This document shows, one piece after another, positions 13,450 to 32,803 of a stretch of 64,000 bases of DNA. The stretch covers positions 1,116,001 to 1,180,000 of the forward strand of contig NZ_JAMZMJ010000001.1 in assembly GCF_024714495.1 (NCBI RefSeq), written 5' to 3'. Positions within the stretch are counted from its first letter, which is position 1, and each line of letters begins with the position of its first letter. The notes below the pieces were generated by a model. The model saw only the letters and a list, made by a program, of their open reading frames with translations, was not told the origin of the DNA and made no database searches. Position numbers and translations under genes: made by a program. Source of the DNA: Marinoscillum pacificum. GTDB lineage: Bacteria; Bacteroidota; Bacteroidia; Cytophagales; Cyclobacteriaceae.

Positions 13450-14112
13450 ATGAAACTTAAGTTTATCACCAACTTTGGAATGCTTATTTTCCTGATGAGT
13501 ACTTTCCACATAATAAGACTATTTGATTTCAGTTACGAATCAGAACATCCAAGCCTTAATGAATACTCTACAGAGCCTGACATCCATCTTAATAATGTCA
13601 GACACTACTATACTAAAGAAGCTGATCACAATCGCAGCATGTATCACCTAGATCAAGCGATACAAAGCATCAAATACCTTGAAACTGATGTTGATCTAAA
13701 TACTAGTCAAATAGTAGATGAGGCAATTGAAAAGTTAAAATATATCTATGAAGAAATAAAAAATGACACACTTGTAAATGAAGACCTAAATCATGCATTT
13801 GAGTTCGCACTTACCAGCTTGTCATTAGCTGAACTTCGTGTTTCCGAACGCTATGCTGAATCGAATAAACTAGAGCTATCAAGAATTGCTCTTAAATACT
13901 CAAAATTGCATTTGAAACATGCTCTTGAGTATTCCTTCAACGACAGTGCTTCGCACTATGAAAAACATGTTTATGAACAAATTGACTCCCTCTTAGCTAA
14001 CTTTGAAGATGCACCAGTATTCATTACCGAAAAAATAGATTTGATGATTGACGAAATGGATAGCCTCCTTCAATTAGAAAGAAATCAATTAACCAATTTG
14101 TCAATTAATTAA
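13450..14112 (+). CDS. Unknown membrane-anchored helical protein (paralogue of the 32180 gene)
   Basis: The 220-residue product has one N-terminal hydrophobic segment (about residues 6-22) and an otherwise helical, acidic body. It is clearly related to the protein encoded at 32180-32803. Both share EPDI-L-N near residue 40, RSM-HL--AI--I--LE, a LK-IY-E block, the strongest block AEL-VSE-YAES, then AL-Y--LH-K-AL and a Y--IDS segment, in the same order and spacing. I do not recognise a published family. The pattern of regularly spaced helices suggests a four-helix or TPR-like periplasmic domain. It stands alone between the tRNA gene and the convergent epimerase gene, whose end is 2 bases away. 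Confidence 0.7.
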   Translation: MKLKFITNFGMLIFLMSTFHIIRLFDFSYESEHPSLNEYSTEPDIHLNNVRHYYTKEADHNRSMYHLDQAIQSIKYLETDVDLNTSQIVDEAIEKLKYIYEEIKNDTLVNEDLNHAFEFALTSLSLAELRVSERYAESNKLELSRIALKYSKLHLKHALEYSFNDSASHYEKHVYEQIDSLLANFEDAPVFITEKIDLMIDEMDSLLQLERNQLTNLSIN

Positions 14113-25080: not shown

Positions 25081-26277
25081 ATGAGCACCATATTACAGAA
25101 CAAATACAGCAATTACCGGGAGCCACAAAAAGTTAAAGAATTAAACCTCTACCCTTTTTTCAGAAATATTCAGTCAGGACAAGATGCCGAAGTAATGGTA
25201 GAAGGTCATAAAGTCCTGATGTTTGGATCTAATAGTTATTTAGGTTTAACAACTCACCCGAAAATTAAAGAAGCTGCAATCGAAGCAGTTAAGAAATACG
25301 GTTCTAGTTTAAGTGGATCACGCTATATGAATGGCACAAGTGATAAGCACGTAGAACTAGAAGATAGATTAGCTAAATTTCTGGGCAAAGAAGCTGTTGC
25401 TTTATATAGCACTGGATTTCAAGTAAACATTGGCGTATTACCAACGGTAGCAGGAAAGGGTGACTATATCTTTTTAGATAGACTCAACCATGCATCTATT
25501 TTTGAAGGTGCAAAGCTTTCTGCAGCTCAGTCTGTTGTGTTTAGACACAATAACATGGAATCTCTTGAGCAAAAGCTAAGTAAAACACCTGCTGACGCTT
25601 TCAAATTCATTGTTGTGGATGGAGTTTTCAGCATGGAAGGTAACATTGTGAAACTTCCAGAAATTGTCAAATTAGCTAAGAAATACAATGCGGCGGTCAT
25701 GTCAGACTGTGCTCATGGCATTGGAGTTATTGGAGATCATGGACGAGGCACTTCTAATCACTTTGGCTTAACTGATGATGTAGATATTATTGGCGGAACG
25801 CTAAGTAAATCATTCGCTTCTTTGGGTGGTTTCTGTGCATCTGATGCTGATACGATTAATTACTTGAAGCACTCTTCCAAATCAATGATTTTTGCTGCGA
25901 GTATCACTCCTGCATCCATTGCATCTGCTTTGGCAGCCTTGGATATCATGGAAACAGATGACTCATATCGCCTGAAGCTTTGGGACAATACTCACTACAC
26001 GCTTAAAGTAATGAACGAACTTGGGTTTGATACCGGAGCTTCAGAAACTCCAATCATTCCTATTTTTGTTAGAGATGATTTGAAGGCATTCAAACTAACA
26101 AAAATGTTATTTGATAGAGGTGTCTTTGTAAACCCTGTAGTGTCTCCTGGAGTGTCTCCTGAAGATTCTCTGATCAGATTCTCTATCATGTCTTCACATA
26201 CCCACGAGCAGATCGATAGAGCAGCTGAAATATTGCACAAAGCAGCTAAAGAAGTAGGACTTTTCGAAACAGCATAA
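25081..26277 (+). CDS. Alpha-oxoamine synthase, serine palmitoyltransferase-like
   Basis: The 398-residue enzyme is a PLP-dependent alpha-oxoamine synthase, condensing an amino acid with an acyl thioester. It shows MFGSNSYLGLTTHPKIKEAA, GSRYMNGTSDKHVELED, the pyridine-stacking His137 in LDRLNHASIF, Asp209 and His212 in SDCAHG, and the PLP lysine Lys243 in GGTLSKSFASLGGF. The SR-YMNGT segment favours serine palmitoyltransferase over KBL or BioF. A cysteate acyltransferase (sulfonolipid) is the main alternative. Residue 210 is Cys where many relatives have Glu or Ala. It is followed after 3 bases by an SDR gene and then an acyltransferase gene, as expected of a sphingolipid operon. Confidence 0.85.
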   Translation: MSTILQNKYSNYREPQKVKELNLYPFFRNIQSGQDAEVMVEGHKVLMFGSNSYLGLTTHPKIKEAAIEAVKKYGSSLSGSRYMNGTSDKHVELEDRLAKFLGKEAVALYSTGFQVNIGVLPTVAGKGDYIFLDRLNHASIFEGAKLSAAQSVVFRHNNMESLEQKLSKTPADAFKFIVVDGVFSMEGNIVKLPEIVKLAKKYNAAVMSDCAHGIGVIGDHGRGTSNHFGLTDDVDIIGGTLSKSFASLGGFCASDADTINYLKHSSKSMIFAASITPASIASALAALDIMETDDSYRLKLWDNTHYTLKVMNELGFDTGASETPIIPIFVRDDLKAFKLTKMLFDRGVFVNPVVSPGVSPEDSLIRFSIMSSHTHEQIDRAAEILHKAAKEVGLFETA

Positions 26278-26280
26278 ACG

Positions 26281-27237
26281 ATGAACATTCTGGTAACTGG
26301 TGCAAATGGTTTTTTAGGAAGTCATATAGTAGAGAAAGCACTAAAAAAAGGACATCAGGTTACCGCACTTGTTCGAAAAGGGTCTGATACTTCCAATCTG
26401 GATCATCTCTCAGGTTATGAAGTAAAATTCATAGATTATTCAAGTGTTGATTCCATTGTTGGCTGTTTAGATGAGCTACCAAATCAGGATATTTTCATCC
26501 ACAATGCTGGCTTAACTAAGAGTTACACATTTGACAGGTATTTAAAAGTAAATGTTGATCTGACGAAAAAGTTAACAGAAGCTCTCAAACGATCAAAACA
26601 CTTTAAATCTGGAATAAAATTCGCCTATGTATCGTCACTTGCTGCTATCGGACCAAAAGGACATAATGGCCCAGCTTCAAACTACGGAAGAAGTAAGTTA
26701 TTAGCAGAAAAAGCCATTCAAGATTCAGGGCTCTCCTATTTAATCTTCCGACCTACAGGCATTTATGGTGAACGTGATGTACAATTTGTACCATTAATAA
26801 AAGCAGTAAAATTGGGTCTATATCCAGCCATGACTCCAAAGCATCATAAAATGACTTTGATCAATGCGAAAGATGTAGCTGAAAACATTATTGAATGTTC
26901 TATTGCCCATGCAAACGTAATCGTACATCTGGAAGATGGGCAGATTTATGAGCATTCAGATATGAAGTCTATATTGGAAGGAATATTGAACAAAAAGTCT
27001 TTCAATCTAAGAGTTTCGAGACCTATAGTAAAAACTGTTTTATATTTTTCCGATATTATTGATAGATCTTTAAATAGAACTCCAAAACTATCCAGAGAAC
27101 ATTATTCAGAAATATCACAGGATTGGGATTATGACTTTTCTGAAGAACGTAAATCCATTCCACTAACAATTGACTACCCATTAAAGAAAGGATTCGAAGA
27201 AGCCATTAACTATTACCAAGCTAACCAATTAATTTGA
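26281..27237 (+). CDS. NAD(P)-dependent SDR reductase/epimerase, CerR-like candidate
   Basis: The 318-residue extended SDR has the cofactor loop TGANGFLGSHIV (residues 6-17), a YVSSLAAIGP strand and the catalytic pair Tyr135 and Lys139 in YGRSK, then FRPTGIYGERD. The family alone does not give the substrate. Position directly after an SPT-like gene and before a GNAT-type acyltransferase gene matches Caulobacter-type ceramide genes, where an SDR protein reduces the 3-keto group of the long-chain base or ceramide. I therefore infer that role. The next gene begins 5 bases after its stop. Confidence 0.75.
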   Translation: MNILVTGANGFLGSHIVEKALKKGHQVTALVRKGSDTSNLDHLSGYEVKFIDYSSVDSIVGCLDELPNQDIFIHNAGLTKSYTFDRYLKVNVDLTKKLTEALKRSKHFKSGIKFAYVSSLAAIGPKGHNGPASNYGRSKLLAEKAIQDSGLSYLIFRPTGIYGERDVQFVPLIKAVKLGLYPAMTPKHHKMTLINAKDVAENIIECSIAHANVIVHLEDGQIYEHSDMKSILEGILNKKSFNLRVSRPIVKTVLYFSDIIDRSLNRTPKLSREHYSEISQDWDYDFSEERKSIPLTIDYPLKKGFEEAINYYQANQLI

Positions 27238-27242
27238 ACCAA

Positions 27243-28376
27243 ATGAGTGTTGAAATTAGAGAAATCACCACCAAGGCAGATATTAAAAAATTCATTTCTT
27301 ATCAATGGGATTTGTACAAAGGTGTAGAGCAATTTGTACCTCCTATGATGGATTTTGAAACCAGCACTTTTTCAAAGGAGAAAAACCCGGCATTTAAAAC
27401 CAGTCAGGGAAGATTCTGGATGGCGTTTAAGGACAACAAGCCTGTTGGGAGAATCTGTGGGATCATTCATGGAGAGGAAGCTCAAGAAACAAAACATATC
27501 CGTTTTGGATGGGTAGATTTCATTGATGACATAGAGGTAAGTTCTGCACTAATAAAAACAGTTGAAGATTGGGGTAAATCAGAAGGGTTAGACAAAATAC
27601 ATGGTCCTCTAGGTTTTACAGACCTTGATTTTGAAGGATGTCTGGTAAGTGGATTTAATCAAATGGCCACTCAAGCCACCATTTACAATTACCCTTATTA
27701 TCCAGAACATTTTGAAAAACTTGGTTTCTCCAAAGCTGTAGATTGGACAGAAGCAAGAATAATAGTTCCATTGAATGATTCAGAATTAGAAGCTGATCTG
27801 GACAGAAAAGCAAAGATCATCGGAGATAGGTATGGAATGCACATTAAAGAATTCAAGTCTGGTAAAGAGATTCTCAAATATGCTGACGAATTCTTTGAAC
27901 TTTTAAATAACACCTATGGACATCTATATGCATTTCACAAGCTAACAGATGATCAGGTAAAATATTTCATTGACTCCTATTTTGGTTTTGTCAAGAAAGA
28001 CTTCATTCTAATGATTGTGGACGACAATGATCAACTGATTGGAGCTGCAATCACCTTCCCTTCACTATCCAAGGCCTTTAAGAAAGCCAAAGGAAAAATG
28101 TTCCCTTTTGGATTCATTCATGTCCTGAAATCTTTCTACAAAAATGATGTCCTAGATTTCTTTTTAATTGCAGCAAAACCAGAATATCAGAAAAAGGGAT
28201 TCAATGCATTGCTCTGGAAAAGACTGTATTGGGCTTGTAACAAACACAATATCCAAGAAATTTGGTCCGGACAAATGCTCGAAACTAATGACAATGTGAA
28301 CAATCTCTGGGCCAAATATCCATCAGCCAAAGACGAAGAAATTAGACGAAGATGTTACACTAAAGCCATCTCTTAA
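27243..28376 (+). CDS. GNAT-fold acyltransferase, bacterial ceramide synthase candidate
   Basis: This 377-residue protein starts VEIREITTKADIKKFISYQWDLYKGVEQFVPPM, the typical N terminus of a large GNAT group found beside SPT genes in Bacteroidota. It holds a first GNAT-like half (VGRICGI, HGPLGFTDLDFEGCL) and a second half with the CoA-site region AAKPEYQKKGFNALLWKRL. The ATG was preferred over an in-frame TTG 9 bases upstream, which overlaps the previous stop. In Caulobacter the bacterial ceramide synthase is an acyltransferase of this fold, so N-acylation of a sphingoid (or capnoid) base is the likely role. This assignment is by family and context, not by a diagnostic residue. Confidence 0.7.
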   Translation: MSVEIREITTKADIKKFISYQWDLYKGVEQFVPPMMDFETSTFSKEKNPAFKTSQGRFWMAFKDNKPVGRICGIIHGEEAQETKHIRFGWVDFIDDIEVSSALIKTVEDWGKSEGLDKIHGPLGFTDLDFEGCLVSGFNQMATQATIYNYPYYPEHFEKLGFSKAVDWTEARIIVPLNDSELEADLDRKAKIIGDRYGMHIKEFKSGKEILKYADEFFELLNNTYGHLYAFHKLTDDQVKYFIDSYFGFVKKDFILMIVDDNDQLIGAAITFPSLSKAFKKAKGKMFPFGFIHVLKSFYKNDVLDFFLIAAKPEYQKKGFNALLWKRLYWACNKHNIQEIWSGQMLETNDNVNNLWAKYPSAKDEEIRRRCYTKAIS

Positions 28377-28423
28377 ATTTCTTTAAATATCACACTGTTC
28401 ATTAGGGGTTTAAATGATTTCGG

Positions 28424-28456
28424 TTGCCCTTCTTGATGACTAATCGATTAATTTTG
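28424..28456 (+). promoter_or_regulatory. Internal promoter before the ketoacyl synthase gene
   Basis: TTG (28424-28426) and TAATTTTG (28449-28456) are separated by 22 bases. This would start a second transcript near 28461, about 55 bases before the synthase start codon, splitting the lipid cluster into two units that can also be read through. Confidence 0.5.
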
Positions 28457-28515
28457 CGAACACTTTAGCCATAGTGATCGTTTGCAGTCTAAAGTTGTAA
28501 TTAAGGAATAGCACA

Positions 28516-29796
28516 TTGTCTAATAAACATAGAGTTGTCATTACAGGCCTCGGAGTTGTTTCTCCTAATGGAAACAATGTTGAGGAATTCGAATCAGCTT
28601 TGAGAGCTGGAAAATCTGGCATTAAAAGATGGGATAATCTTGAAAAAATAAATTTCAAGGGACAAATCGGTGGTAAACCGGACATTTCTCAAGAATATAA
28701 AGAAGAACACTTACCAGGTTTCATAGCTAAGAAACTTCAAAATCATGCTGTGATTTACGCCTGTCTATCAGGACTTGAGGCATGGAAGAATGCAGGTCTT
28801 GATATTGCTCCTGGTCAATATGATCGTAAAACCGGATTATTGATCGGTTCAGGTGCACTAGGTCTGGATAGTTTTATAGAGCATAAAATTTACCCTATAG
28901 ATAACGGTGATCACAGAAAATTAGGATCTCGCTCTGTGCCGGAATCCATGAGCAGTGGAGCAGGTGCCTATTTAAACAGCATCCTGGGTCTAAAAGGACG
29001 AATTTTCTCGAACAGTTCAGCATGTATCACTGGATCAGAGGCTATTCTTCAAGCATTTGAAATGATCCAATCTGGCAAGATGGAAAGAATGCTCTGCGGA
29101 AGCACTGAAGGTGATGGCAGATACATTTGGGGCGGATTTGATGCAATGAGAATTCTTTGTAGTGACTCTAATGACACTCCAGAAAAAGGCTCCAGACCAA
29201 TGAGTGCTACAAGTAGTGGGTTTGTTCCAAGCGGGGGATCAGGAGCTATGGTTTTAGAAACACTGGAAGCTGCAGAAGCCAGAGGCGCTCATATCTATGC
29301 TGAAATTCTAGGTGGAGATGTAAACTCAGGAGGTCAACAAGGAGGTGGATCTATGACTGCACAAAATCCTGAAGCCGTAGTAGATTGTATTCAAACAGCT
29401 ATAAGTAACTCTGGCATCAAGAGCTCAGAGATTGATTTAATTTCCGGTCACCTCACATCTACTAAAGGAGATCCATACGAAATCAAAAACTGGTTTGACG
29501 CGTTAGACCTACCAAAAGATGAGTTTCCATTAGTGAATACTCCAAAATCAATGATTGGACATTGTGTAGCTGGCGCTGGCTCCATCGAATTAGTTGCTTG
29601 TGCTCTACAAATCTCCAATGGATTCGTTCATAAAAATATCAATCTGGAAGAAATTCATCCAGACATACTGAGCATTTTAGATGAGGGTAAATTCCCAACA
29701 GATACTGAAGAGAAAGAAATAAACACGATTATCAAATCAAACTTTGGGTTTGGTGATTTGAACTGTTGTGTAGTCTTAAGAAAATACAAGAAATAA
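28516..29796 (+). CDS. Beta-ketoacyl-ACP synthase (KAS II-like)
   Basis: The 426-residue thiolase-fold protein has all three catalytic residues: Cys170 in NSSACITGSEA, His312 in SGHLTSTKGDP and His349 in KSMIGHCVAGAG. The usual HGT motif around the first His reads HLT. The C terminus has SNFGFGDLNCCVVL as in FabF. It uses a TTG start: RVVITGLGVVSPNG begins five codons later and no ATG is near. The adjacent ACP gene starts at the very next base, so the enzyme almost surely works with that dedicated carrier, making or extending the acyl chain used by the SPT-like or acyltransferase proteins. Confidence 0.9.
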   Translation: MSNKHRVVITGLGVVSPNGNNVEEFESALRAGKSGIKRWDNLEKINFKGQIGGKPDISQEYKEEHLPGFIAKKLQNHAVIYACLSGLEAWKNAGLDIAPGQYDRKTGLLIGSGALGLDSFIEHKIYPIDNGDHRKLGSRSVPESMSSGAGAYLNSILGLKGRIFSNSSACITGSEAILQAFEMIQSGKMERMLCGSTEGDGRYIWGGFDAMRILCSDSNDTPEKGSRPMSATSSGFVPSGGSGAMVLETLEAAEARGAHIYAEILGGDVNSGGQQGGGSMTAQNPEAVVDCIQTAISNSGIKSSEIDLISGHLTSTKGDPYEIKNWFDALDLPKDEFPLVNTPKSMIGHCVAGAGSIELVACALQISNGFVHKNINLEEIHPDILSILDEGKFPTDTEEKEINTIIKSNFGFGDLNCCVVLRKYKK

Positions 29797-30048
29797 ATGA
29801 ACAGAGAAGAAATAAAAGTAGAGCTATTAAAGATCATAGATCCTTACATAGACGAAAAAGAAGTTACCACAAGCATTTCGGAGCAATCTGACTTAATCAA
29901 TGACTTGAACATTAACTCAGCACATTTAGTAGACATAGTGCTTGATATTGAAGAAAAGTTCGATATCATGATCGAAGATGACTTTATTGGAAAAATGGAT
30001 ACGGTTGGTAATGCATTAGATATTATCGAGGAAAAATTGAATGGTTAA
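29797..30048 (+). CDS. Dedicated acyl carrier protein
   Basis: The 83-residue acidic helical protein has the ACP shape, with the phosphopantetheine attachment Ser41 in LNINSAHLVDIVLDIEEKFDI. The usual DSL motif is NSA here, so it is not the housekeeping AcpP. It begins immediately after the stop of the ketoacyl synthase gene and is followed, after a lipoprotein gene, by a phosphopantetheinyl transferase that could activate it. Caulobacter ceramide synthesis also uses a dedicated ACP, which supports the sphingolipid reading. Confidence 0.88.
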   Translation: MNREEIKVELLKIIDPYIDEKEVTTSISEQSDLINDLNINSAHLVDIVLDIEEKFDIMIEDDFIGKMDTVGNALDIIEEKLNG

Positions 30049-30091
30049 TCATTTTTCTCTTAGATCAACAAACAACCTTTACGGTTAAAAT

Positions 30092-30544
30092 ATGCTTTGG
30101 AAACAACCCAAATTACCAATATTTATAGTACTTGCTATAATTCTAATTTCATCTTGCAGTACCAAAAATGGCCCTGAAAGTTCAACAGCAAGACCAATTG
30201 CTGATAGTGAAATAGAAGCTTACTGGATCAAATTCTATAAAATAAACAGTAGAGTCATTGTACACCTAAATGGTGAAGAGATTCACGACTCTGGTGTATT
30301 TGAAGAAATTACAAAGCCATATACCCTGAGTCTAAGTAAACTCATCAAAGAAGGAAAGAACACTCTTGAAATAGACCTTCTTAATGGGCCTCCATATGAT
30401 GACTCTGTCGGATTTGACAAATATTGGGAAATCGATTATGAAATATTCAATTACGATGAGCCAATTGACTTTAGCTATGAAGTAAACAAAACCGGGCGAA
30501 ATGGATTAGTCTGGGAGAGAGAACATATATTGGAAATTGAATAG
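30092..30544 (+). CDS. Lipoprotein of unknown function in the lipid operon
   Basis: The 150-residue protein has a lipoprotein signal (KLPIFIVLAIILISSCSTK, Cys at about residue 23). The mature region is beta-rich with features like a jelly-roll or Ig-type domain: VIVHLNGEEIHDSGVFEE, LIKEGKNTLEIDLLNG, YWEIDYEIFNY. The pattern HLNGEEI...L..GKNTLEI recalls carbohydrate-binding sandwich domains, but I cannot name a family. It lies between the ACP and phosphopantetheinyl transferase genes, 3 bases before the latter, so it probably handles or senses the lipid product in the envelope. Confidence 0.65.
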   Translation: MLWKQPKLPIFIVLAIILISSCSTKNGPESSTARPIADSEIEAYWIKFYKINSRVIVHLNGEEIHDSGVFEEITKPYTLSLSKLIKEGKNTLEIDLLNGPPYDDSVGFDKYWEIDYEIFNYDEPIDFSYEVNKTGRNGLVWEREHILEIE

Positions 30545-30547
30545 ACG

Positions 30548-31087
30548 ATGCCAGGAATTGACTTGATCGATTTGAAGGATCCACTCCTAAGAAAGCGAGA
30601 AAATAATGCCTTGAGACTCATAACTAATGAGCAAGACATCTTTGACGATGACCATGGTTTCTGGTACTTATGGACGGCAAAGGAGGCCGTTTTCAAGCAA
30701 TTCCGAGAATTAACCAATTTCGACCCAAAGGAAATCCCAATCAAAATCATCAAGAAGGATGATAAAATCACCTTCGAAAGCAATGACATACAGGGATTTT
30801 ATATAATAACTGATGATGTCATAGTTGCTATTTGTCATACTCCTGAGGAAGAAATAGAGTTTGAAACGATGAAATGTGAAGACTTTCATCAATCACAAAA
30901 AATCAGGCTAAAACTTCAGGAACATTTATCCGAAAAGTACGATTTAAAGACAGAAGTCGTTTCTGATGGTGATGGTTTACCGATAATCAAAGCCACTGGA
31001 CAAGCTATTTCTTTCACACATCATTACCATCACATGGGTTTTGTGTTTGATAAATCTAGCATATCTAAAAAGCCCCAATCCCATTAG
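30548..31087 (+). CDS. 4'-phosphopantetheinyl transferase superfamily protein
   Basis: The 179-residue protein carries the signature elements of the Sfp/AcpS superfamily: PGIDLIDLKDP at the N terminus (the metal-binding Asp in GID), then WYLWTAKEAVFKQF (WxxKEA), and a C-terminal ISFTHHYHHMGFVF segment. It lacks the first half of Sfp-length enzymes and is close to AcpS-like size. It presumably attaches phosphopantetheine to Ser41 of the carrier protein encoded two genes upstream. Its last 23 bases overlap the end of the convergent DUF2214 gene. Confidence 0.82.
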   Translation: MPGIDLIDLKDPLLRKRENNALRLITNEQDIFDDDHGFWYLWTAKEAVFKQFRELTNFDPKEIPIKIIKKDDKITFESNDIQGFYIITDDVIVAICHTPEEEIEFETMKCEDFHQSQKIRLKLQEHLSEKYDLKTEVVSDGDGLPIIKATGQAISFTHHYHHMGFVFDKSSISKKPQSH

Positions 31088-32179: not shown

Positions 32180-32803
32180 GTGAAGTTATTTTCGTATATC
32201 GGATTACTATTTCTAGGCTTTATCGTATTATACATTGCAGGATCTGTGATACATCACCTTGTTCCTACCACACTAACCTCAGAAGTAGTTGAGCCCGACA
32301 TTCTACTATCCAATACCAAGAGGTATTTCGAGGATGATGCCCACGAACGAAGCATGAACCATTTAATTCATGCCATTGAGGCAATCGAAAAAATAGAACA
32401 GGAAATTGATGATGACAGTAAACTTAAGGTAGATAAAGCTGTTGTGGAATTGAAAAAAATTTATGCTGAAATGAGTCATGACACCTTCAATATTACCAAA
32501 TTGAACGAGGCAAGTGTCAAAGCTCTCAACGCTTTGACTTATGCAGAACTTAAAGTGTCAGAACATTATGCTGAGTCTCATGAACTCAATAAGGCTCGTG
32601 TTGCATTAGGGTATGGAATGCTTCATATTAAGAATGCGCTTTTGTTTGCGGAGGGATACAAGAAAGAATATGAAGTAAAACTCTATGCTGAAATTGATTC
32701 AATAGTCGAAAACAAACACCTTTCTGATAAGGAATTGATTGAAAAGCTGGAGCACATGATAACAGAACTTGATGAAGATCGATTAATCGAGTCAGAACAC
32801 TAA
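32180..32803 (+). CDS. Unknown membrane-anchored helical protein (paralogue of the 13450 gene)
   Basis: The 207-residue protein has an N-terminal membrane helix (about residues 5-27) and a highly helical, acidic and Lys/Glu-rich body. Its blocks match those of the 13450 gene product in order: EPDI-LSNT, RSMNHLIHAIEAIEKIE, AVVELKKIYAEMSHDT, LTYAELKVSEHYAES, ARVALGYGMLHIKNAL, YAEIDSI. No known family is recognised. It precedes the glutamine-synthetase-like gene by 35 bases and may belong to the same transcript. Without its paralogue I would have judged it a lone hypothetical; the pair shows it is a real conserved gene. Confidence 0.75.
   Translation: MKLFSYIGLLFLGFIVLYIAGSVIHHLVPTTLTSEVVEPDILLSNTKRYFEDDAHERSMNHLIHAIEAIEKIEQEIDDDSKLKVDKAVVELKKIYAEMSHDTFNITKLNEASVKALNALTYAELKVSEHYAESHELNKARVALGYGMLHIKNALLFAEGYKKEYEVKLYAEIDSIVENKHLSDKELIEKLEHMITELDEDRLIESEH

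Follow-up and report, generated by a model that had tools for sequence, protein, structure and literature searches.

The window considered here is a stretch of 64,000 nucleotides from Marinoscillum pacificum (Bacteroidota, Cyclobacteriaceae; contig NZ_JAMZMJ010000001.1, positions 1,116,001 to 1,180,000), an organism with a 6.4-Mb genome in 32 contigs. Positions 25081-31087 of the window hold seven open reading frames (ORFs), all on the + strand, for a serine palmitoyltransferase (SPT), a short-chain dehydrogenase/reductase (SDR), a GNAT acyltransferase, a ketoacyl-acyl carrier protein (ACP) synthase (KAS), an ACP, a lipoprotein and a 4'-phosphopantetheinyl transferase (PPTase). All seven were confirmed at the place and with the families that a first-pass annotation of this DNA had given them. 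The locus most likely represents a variant form of the bacterial ceramide pathway, to which an acyl-carrier cassette is linked. Its features, which include a gap occupied elsewhere by an enoyl-ACP reductase (ENR) and a dehydratase (DH), are as follows.

25081-26277, + strand: predicted serine-type SPT (alpha-oxoamine synthase); Lys243 for pyridoxal phosphate (PLP), Ala273 at the position of Lys281 in SulA; matches NF047600 and 3a2b/8guh
26281-27237, + strand: extended SDR of the NAD-dependent epimerase type, proposed ceramide/3-ketosphinganine reductase (Pfam and NCBIfam family matches)
27243-28376, + strand: tandem GNAT acyltransferase, proposed N-acyltransferase (ceramide synthase) by family match and structure model
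28377-28515, + strand: gap between GNAT and KAS; TAGGGG box, TTGCC box, promoter-like match; length conserved, occupied by ENR and DH in sister genera
28516-29796, + strand: KAS with both KAS domains; C170, H312, K344 and H349; GFGD replaces GFGG
29797-30048, + strand: ACP with Ser41 within NSA; NCBIfam ACP models match below their cut-offs
30092-30544, + strand: predicted lipoprotein; beta-sandwich model, pLDDT 74.6
30548-31087, + strand: divergent PPTase, ACPS-type family match

The genes are closely packed, with 3 bp between SPT and SDR, none between KAS and ACP, 43 bp between ACP and lipoprotein and 3 bp between lipoprotein and PPTase. The GNAT most likely starts at ATG 27243 rather than at TTG 27234, because its homologues start there, and the SDR-GNAT gap is then 5 bp. 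The only long interval, 139 bp between GNAT and KAS, is 113-150 bp long in all six members of the genus and contains the TAGGGG box in five and the TTGCC box in six of them; two of the six also have a match to TTG-N22/23-TAATTTTG, which we take to be a promoter pattern. From this conserved gap, its boxes and the promoter-like match it is possible that the locus comprises two transcription units.

The seven-gene block was looked for in relatives, and the order SPT-SDR-GNAT-KAS-ACP-PPTase was found in 6/6 genus genomes, one of which (G124) has an extra ORF of 511 aa after the ACP. The lipoprotein was found in five of them, G243 giving no match. Identity to the locus is 84-98% for SPT and 84-96% for ACP, and 36-61% for PPTase and 33-54% for the lipoprotein. 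Compared with G289, the SPT gene has a proportion of synonymous differences (pS) of 0.60 and of nonsynonymous differences (pN) of 0.01; across the genus pN is 0.10-0.19 for KAS, 0.03-0.13 for ACP and 0.12-0.22 for GNAT, with pS at 0.75-1.03 and mostly saturated, so that no dN/dS is given. Gene order and protein-coding conservation are thus more than chance would give.

A predicted serine-type SPT and a probable ceramide module

Among the 17 NCBIfam models that match the SPT of the locus, NF047600 ranks first, and a sequence search of the PDB returned 3a2b/8guh, presumably the SPT of Sphingobacterium, as the top match (465 bits). The first-pass annotation had considered a sulfonolipid as a product. 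Indeed, SPT and cysteate acyltransferase belong to the same superfamily and genera of the Bacteroidetes produce sulfonolipids (PMC9304779; here and below, PMC numbers refer to the available parts of the articles), so that an SPT-like enzyme acting as a cysteate acyltransferase would turn the locus into a sulfonolipid (capnine) operon. SulA has Lys281 where Spt has Ala (PMC9304779), and Ala occupies this position in the SPT of the locus, in its paralogue in a second cluster of the same genome (see below) and in eight further SPTs (L057-L064). The Lys is found instead in a separate homologue of cysteate-C-fatty acyltransferase (CFAT) in the same genome (L011:6097-7350), which scores 542 bits to 7u7h, which we infer to be SulA, and 539 bits to 28eh, which carries the name cysteate-C-fatty acyltransferase. 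By these tests the SPT of the locus would be of the serine type; a sulfonolipid, if made here, would stem from the CFAT homologue, and a capnine operon at this locus is extremely unlikely. The CFAT homologue is of interest in its own right, as the organism may additionally make sulfonolipids.

The SDR matches Epimerase/HpnA-type families in Pfam and NCBIfam; a likeness to CerR, a periplasmic extended SDR, is presumed, partly in view of PMC11087976. The structure model of the GNAT is a tandem GNAT (pLDDT 86.8), and tandem GNAT acetyltransferases are among its top PDB folds; of the PDB sequence searches with this protein, one gave no matches and another gave weak matches to small acetyltransferases alone. 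Two traits expected of a bacterial ceramide synthase (bCerS) are present, namely a GNAT fold and a gene position beside SPT and a reductase. Together, SPT, extended SDR and tandem GNAT look like a ceramide module. The first-pass annotation had equated them with the Caulobacter set "in order": the ceramide-type module and the spacing of 3 and 5 bp stand, but the order does not, since the Caulobacter cerS lies outside the spt/cerR operon in the description of PMC11324152. The same trio occurs without a KAS cassette at five of nine loci (L160, L161, L164, L165, L166) and in four genomes of the order-level sample (G010, G068, G114 and G077; L019, L020 with L049, L022 and L023).

Two other architectures were encountered in these families. 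A single open frame of 764 aa (G311:C21:278197-280482, within L168) holds two GNAT copies, and in an 806-aa ORF (L010:5901-8321) an alpha-oxoamine synthase (NF005697) is followed by a C-terminal region that looks, by eye, GNAT-like.

The acyl-carrier cassette and its neighbours

The KAS has the condensing residues Cys-His-His plus Lys, and at 265.9 bits, against an NCBIfam FabF cut-off of 493.75, it is by that cut-off not a housekeeping FabF. Two further KAS of the housekeeping type are encoded in the genome, one adjoined by a DSL-type ACP. The PPTase matches its ACPS-type model at 25.4 bits (cut-off 25). The lipoprotein carries ISSC, which we take to be lipobox-like; it has no match in Pfam or NCBIfam, and the fold search with its model returned nothing at E 0.001 or better. 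The NSA at Ser41 of the ACP was noted in the first-pass annotation as standing in place of DSL. The motif is indeed present, but it is usual in this ACP family and marks it: 86 of the 87 distinct ACP matches carry it, the lone exception, a copy in L143, reading NSV. A cassette that recurs elsewhere, made up of a FabL-like ENR, a FabZ-like DH, KAS, ACP and PPTase, has a reduced version here in the KAS, NSA-type ACP, lipoprotein and PPTase of the locus. At L053:8645-9958, a cassette-type KAS has Gln at the position of the first catalytic His; its cluster also encodes a luciferase-like oxidoreductase and an SDR that resembles thioester reductases.

Neither ENR nor DH lies between GNAT and KAS in any of the six genus genomes, and the cassette ENR and DH occur within the genus only in G000 and G289, in a second cluster. 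In the other four genomes they are absent, the best matches being SDRs (24-35%) and, within frames of 467-477 aa, a FabZ-like stretch; the size of these frames suggests an LpxC-FabZ fusion. Sister genera retain both genes (e.g., L149, L151, L152), although L057 and L142 have no ENR and one copy in G274 has neither.

The wider distribution was examined by a scan of named genomes with a KAS alignment, which gave at least 80 loci and is not a census. Eight of the 80 loci among the matches listed are of the SPT type (L057-L064), and a type III polyketide synthase (PKS) occurs in 70 of the other 72. Neighbours were then counted at 101 loci, excluding the locus under study and near-identical KAS. 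Genes were named by BLAST against our own reference set only, the type of a locus was set by GNAT or type III PKS among the six upstream genes, and unmatched genes and short ORFs were skipped in naming the nearest gene. GNAT directly precedes the cassette, with nothing unmatched in between, in 25/25 distinct SPT-type KAS genes (22 loci), and for the other distinct KAS genes the nearest gene that could be named is a type III PKS in 72/72, with unmatched ORFs in between at some loci (e.g., one of 803 aa in L102); two further KAS are of neither type. As the loci were collected via KAS, its presence in them carries no evidential weight; the ACP is present in all 22 SPT-type loci. In a tree of 105 KAS, again with near-identical sequences removed, all 26 SPT/GNAT-linked KAS form one clade (support 0.98), and a single group of the type III PKS-linked KAS is unsupported (0.12). 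The claim that KAS, ACP and PPTase are dedicated genes that belong with the ceramide module is thus supported by the 25 KAS genes and the single KAS clade. KAS homologues proven to act in an unrelated pathway had been named as grounds for rejecting it, and the data go half-way there: type III PKS clusters, as judged by gene context, hold many of the related KAS.

The genome itself contains a second, fuller sphingolipid set (L007, G000 C1), in the order SPT, MIPS, nucleotidyltransferase, and then GNAT, SDR, FabZ-like dehydratase, KAS and ACP, followed by one Pfam-supported desaturase, two ORFs that are desaturase-like by eye and a CDP-alcohol phosphotransferase. Its SPT lies on the opposite strand and its GNAT runs in line with the cassette. 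Identity to the locus is 64% for SPT, 56% for KAS, 49% for GNAT and 43% for ACP. The SDR of this cluster was ruled out as a ketoreductase by its best model, FabL (130 bits, far under the cut-off of 328), and by its Y-x6-K motif, whose meaning for this SDR we assume; the motif is kept in 62 of 65 homologues, or in 58 of 61 when only distinct sequences are counted. The desaturase at L007:15029-15955 matches Pfam Lipid_DES (sphingolipid Delta4-desaturase). With the second SPT cluster, MIPS and a CDP-alcohol transferase beside it, this gene points to bacterial lipids that are unsaturated and resemble inositol phosphoceramides. A C1-type cluster at 62-95% identity also occurs in L064 (PBTY01000022.1), a contig labelled as part of a Rickettsiales metagenome-assembled genome; this label looks wrong. 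In the window, two similar small proteins about 19 kb apart (13450-14112 and 32180-32803) look, by eye, like a duplicated pair.

A proposed acyl supply for ceramide synthesis and its alternatives

From the gene content, order, conservation, KAS clade and catalytic residues, all observed directly, we infer the reactions, the chain and its consumer as follows. Judging from their families and from the same trio at other loci, SPT would condense serine with an acyl thioester, the SDR would reduce the 3-keto group and GNAT would attach the second (N-) acyl chain. The PPTase would activate the dedicated ACP; it was rejected as the sole activator, because the genome encodes three PPTases including this one. 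KAS would combine an acyl chain from the housekeeping ACP with malonyl on the dedicated ACP, which in one step would leave the chain, longer by two carbons, on a private carrier. KAS alone yields only 3-ketoacyl-ACP, so that ketoreduction would have to come from elsewhere, presumably from a housekeeping ketoreductase (KR) that gives 3-hydroxyacyl-ACP. Where DH and ENR are linked, as in sister genera, they would complete the cycle to a saturated chain.

That KAS and ACP feed the ceramide enzymes encoded beside them is, in our estimate, probable (roughly 0.7). As to which enzyme receives the chain, our first, tentative choice is that GNAT uses a 3-hydroxyacyl donor for N-acylation, because DH and ENR are missing from the locus in the genus; for sulfobactin A, N-acylation by 3-hydroxyacyl-ACP is described (PMC9304779). 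An acyl chain for SPT is the second choice. Acyl-ACP donors have precedents in SulA (PMC9304779) and in AcpR for SPT (PMC9386255). We would cautiously suggest that the locus may represent a third supply route for ceramide, beside acyl-CoA, AasR/AcpR and type I PKS, in which a discrete KAS moves the chain onto a private ACP and extends it. In the genus the carrier would then stall at the 3-hydroxyacyl stage, which would fix the hydroxylation of the ceramide (3-OH on the N-acyl chain, or a 5-hydroxy base should SPT be the consumer). A 5-hydroxy base is known from RIF-1 (PMC3463246) and would fit a 3-hydroxyacyl donor, but this link was dropped in view of the many SPT-bearing genomes of the family that have no KAS (39 of 69).

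Several observations weigh against linking cassette and ceramide synthesis in this way. The SPT scores 595.4 bits to NF047600, 45 below the equivalog cut-off of 640 (the C1 paralogue reaches 639.7 bits, scored on a 382-aa stretch alone), and acyl-CoA is given as the substrate of Bacteroidota Spts (PMC11324152). A separate promoter within the 139-bp gap may serve KAS. GNATs of this family also occur apart from SPT: at 24 order-level GNAT loci with flanks of 1.5 kb, SPT lies beside GNAT in four, GNAT has no SPT in 18 and two gave no GNAT match to our reference set, and SPT is likewise absent from three 20-kb loci with GNATs at 36-37% (L042, L045, L046). KAS was found in 39 and SPT in 69 of 390 genomes of the family, and SPT as such can do without the cassette, because the 39 SPT-bearing genomes mentioned above have no KAS; the second cluster of G243 (L163) also has SPT and GNAT and neither KAS nor ACP. 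By these counts the cassette would seem to supplement a ceramide module that is itself more common. In favour of the link, KAS, SPT and GNAT (cut at 1e-90) occur together above the cut-offs in 30 of the 39 KAS genomes; the Fisher test on these counts takes no account of how closely the genomes are related. Five of the nine KAS genomes outside this overlap (all but G138, G153, G308 and G323) were looked at: G121 and G371 have type III PKS loci, G224 has an SPT in L152, and G338 and G350 are fragmented assemblies (590 and 930 contigs).

Within the figure given above falls the alternative that KAS and ACP supply the acyl group of the long-chain base to SPT, rather than the N-acyl chain to GNAT, with housekeeping KR, DH and ENR finishing the chain. 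We regard this as possible rather than probable. It has precedents in AasR/AcpR of the Rhodobacteria (PMC9386255) and in the preference of SulA for acyl-ACP (PMC9304779), and elsewhere the cassette adjoins type III PKS, another enzyme that forms C-C bonds from an acyl starter. The divergence of KAS also follows that of SPT (r 0.63; partial 0.36) slightly better than that of GNAT (r 0.57; partial 0.17), which lends no support to our first choice, although over these 19 loci co-divergence failed to separate the two consumers. However, it is GNAT that adjoins the cassette in each of the 25 KAS genes and that stays in line with it in the C1-type cluster where SPT is reversed, and a supply to SPT leaves the absence of ENR and DH at the genus locus unexplained.

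The 139-bp gap with its conserved boxes and promoter-like match, and the many related KAS in type III PKS clusters, would also agree with KAS, ACP, lipoprotein and PPTase forming a separate transcription unit for another product, a mere neighbour of the ceramide genes. This seems unlikely to us, given that the link is kept in all 25 SPT-type KAS genes, that the genome has two such sets with different partners and that no further biosynthetic gene was recognised among the seven. The first-pass annotation had proposed that the operon could build and load its own acyl chain without recourse to housekeeping fatty acid synthesis. KAS, ACP and PPTase are present, and sister genera and the C1 cluster have a fuller ENR-DH-KAS-ACP cassette. 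Pfam and NCBIfam scans, however, recognised no KR, DH, ENR, FabD or FabH, nor an acyl-ACP synthetase, among the seven genes, the cassette DH and ENR are missing altogether from four of the six genus genomes, and other loci have no KR, FabD or FabH among their matched genes (unmatched ORFs were left out of that scan). We therefore abandon this proposal as highly improbable and retain the reading in which the cassette feeds the neighbouring ceramide enzymes and draws on housekeeping synthesis.

Comparison with known systems

Searches of the open-access literature, which excludes most subscription journals and was judged mainly by titles and the beginnings of abstracts, gave no paper with an evident link between a ketoacyl synthase and SPT in Bacteroidota, nor one on a locus of this type. 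The locus suggests that a private acyl chain is prepared for sphingolipids. It makes the acyl donor of ceramides in Bacteroidota testable, for which acyl-CoA is stated in the case of their Spts (PMC11324152) and acyl-ACP is preferred by the related SulA (PMC9304779). With KAS, ACP and PPTase all encoded at the locus, the test can proceed gene by gene, and the natural absence of DH and ENR in one genus provides a built-in comparison.

The set of Caulobacter and the Rhodobacteria (spt, acpR, aasR, cerR, cerS) likewise comprises SPT, reductase, N-acyltransferase and a specialised ACP (PMC9386255, PMC11324152, PMC11087976), so that a dedicated ACP, which the first-pass annotation had regarded as unusual, was already known as AcpR (PMC9386255). 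There, the acyl-ACP synthetase AasR loads AcpR (PMC9386255), a role for which KAS is proposed here. Furthermore, cerS is always in another operon according to PMC11324152, whereas GNAT lies between SDR and KAS at our locus, which also has a linked PPTase. SulA, the cysteate acyl-ACP transferase of Alistipes, likewise depends on PLP to condense an amino acid and an acyl thioester (PMC9304779), and differs from the SPT studied here in having Lys instead of Ala273, its counterpart in this genome being the separate CFAT homologue. SgaAB(C) of Pseudomonas fluorescens MYb115 also couples a dedicated ketosynthase system to SPT and a proposed reductase, in the synthesis of type I PKS-derived sphingolipids (PMC12134224); that system is an iterative type I PKS in another phylum, whereas KAS and ACP are discrete here and GNAT is added. 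Also related through its cassette is the type III PKS cluster of Flavobacteriaceae, Saprospiraceae, Spirosoma and Pedobacter, in the order FAD-oxidoreductase, methyltransferase, DpgA-like PKS, ENR, DH, KAS, ACP and PPTase. It shares ENR-DH-KAS-ACP-PPTase and the NSA-type ACP, but its partner is a type III PKS instead of SPT and GNAT and its KAS falls outside the SPT-linked clade. The same cassette beside such different partners would constitute a portable acyl-supply module.

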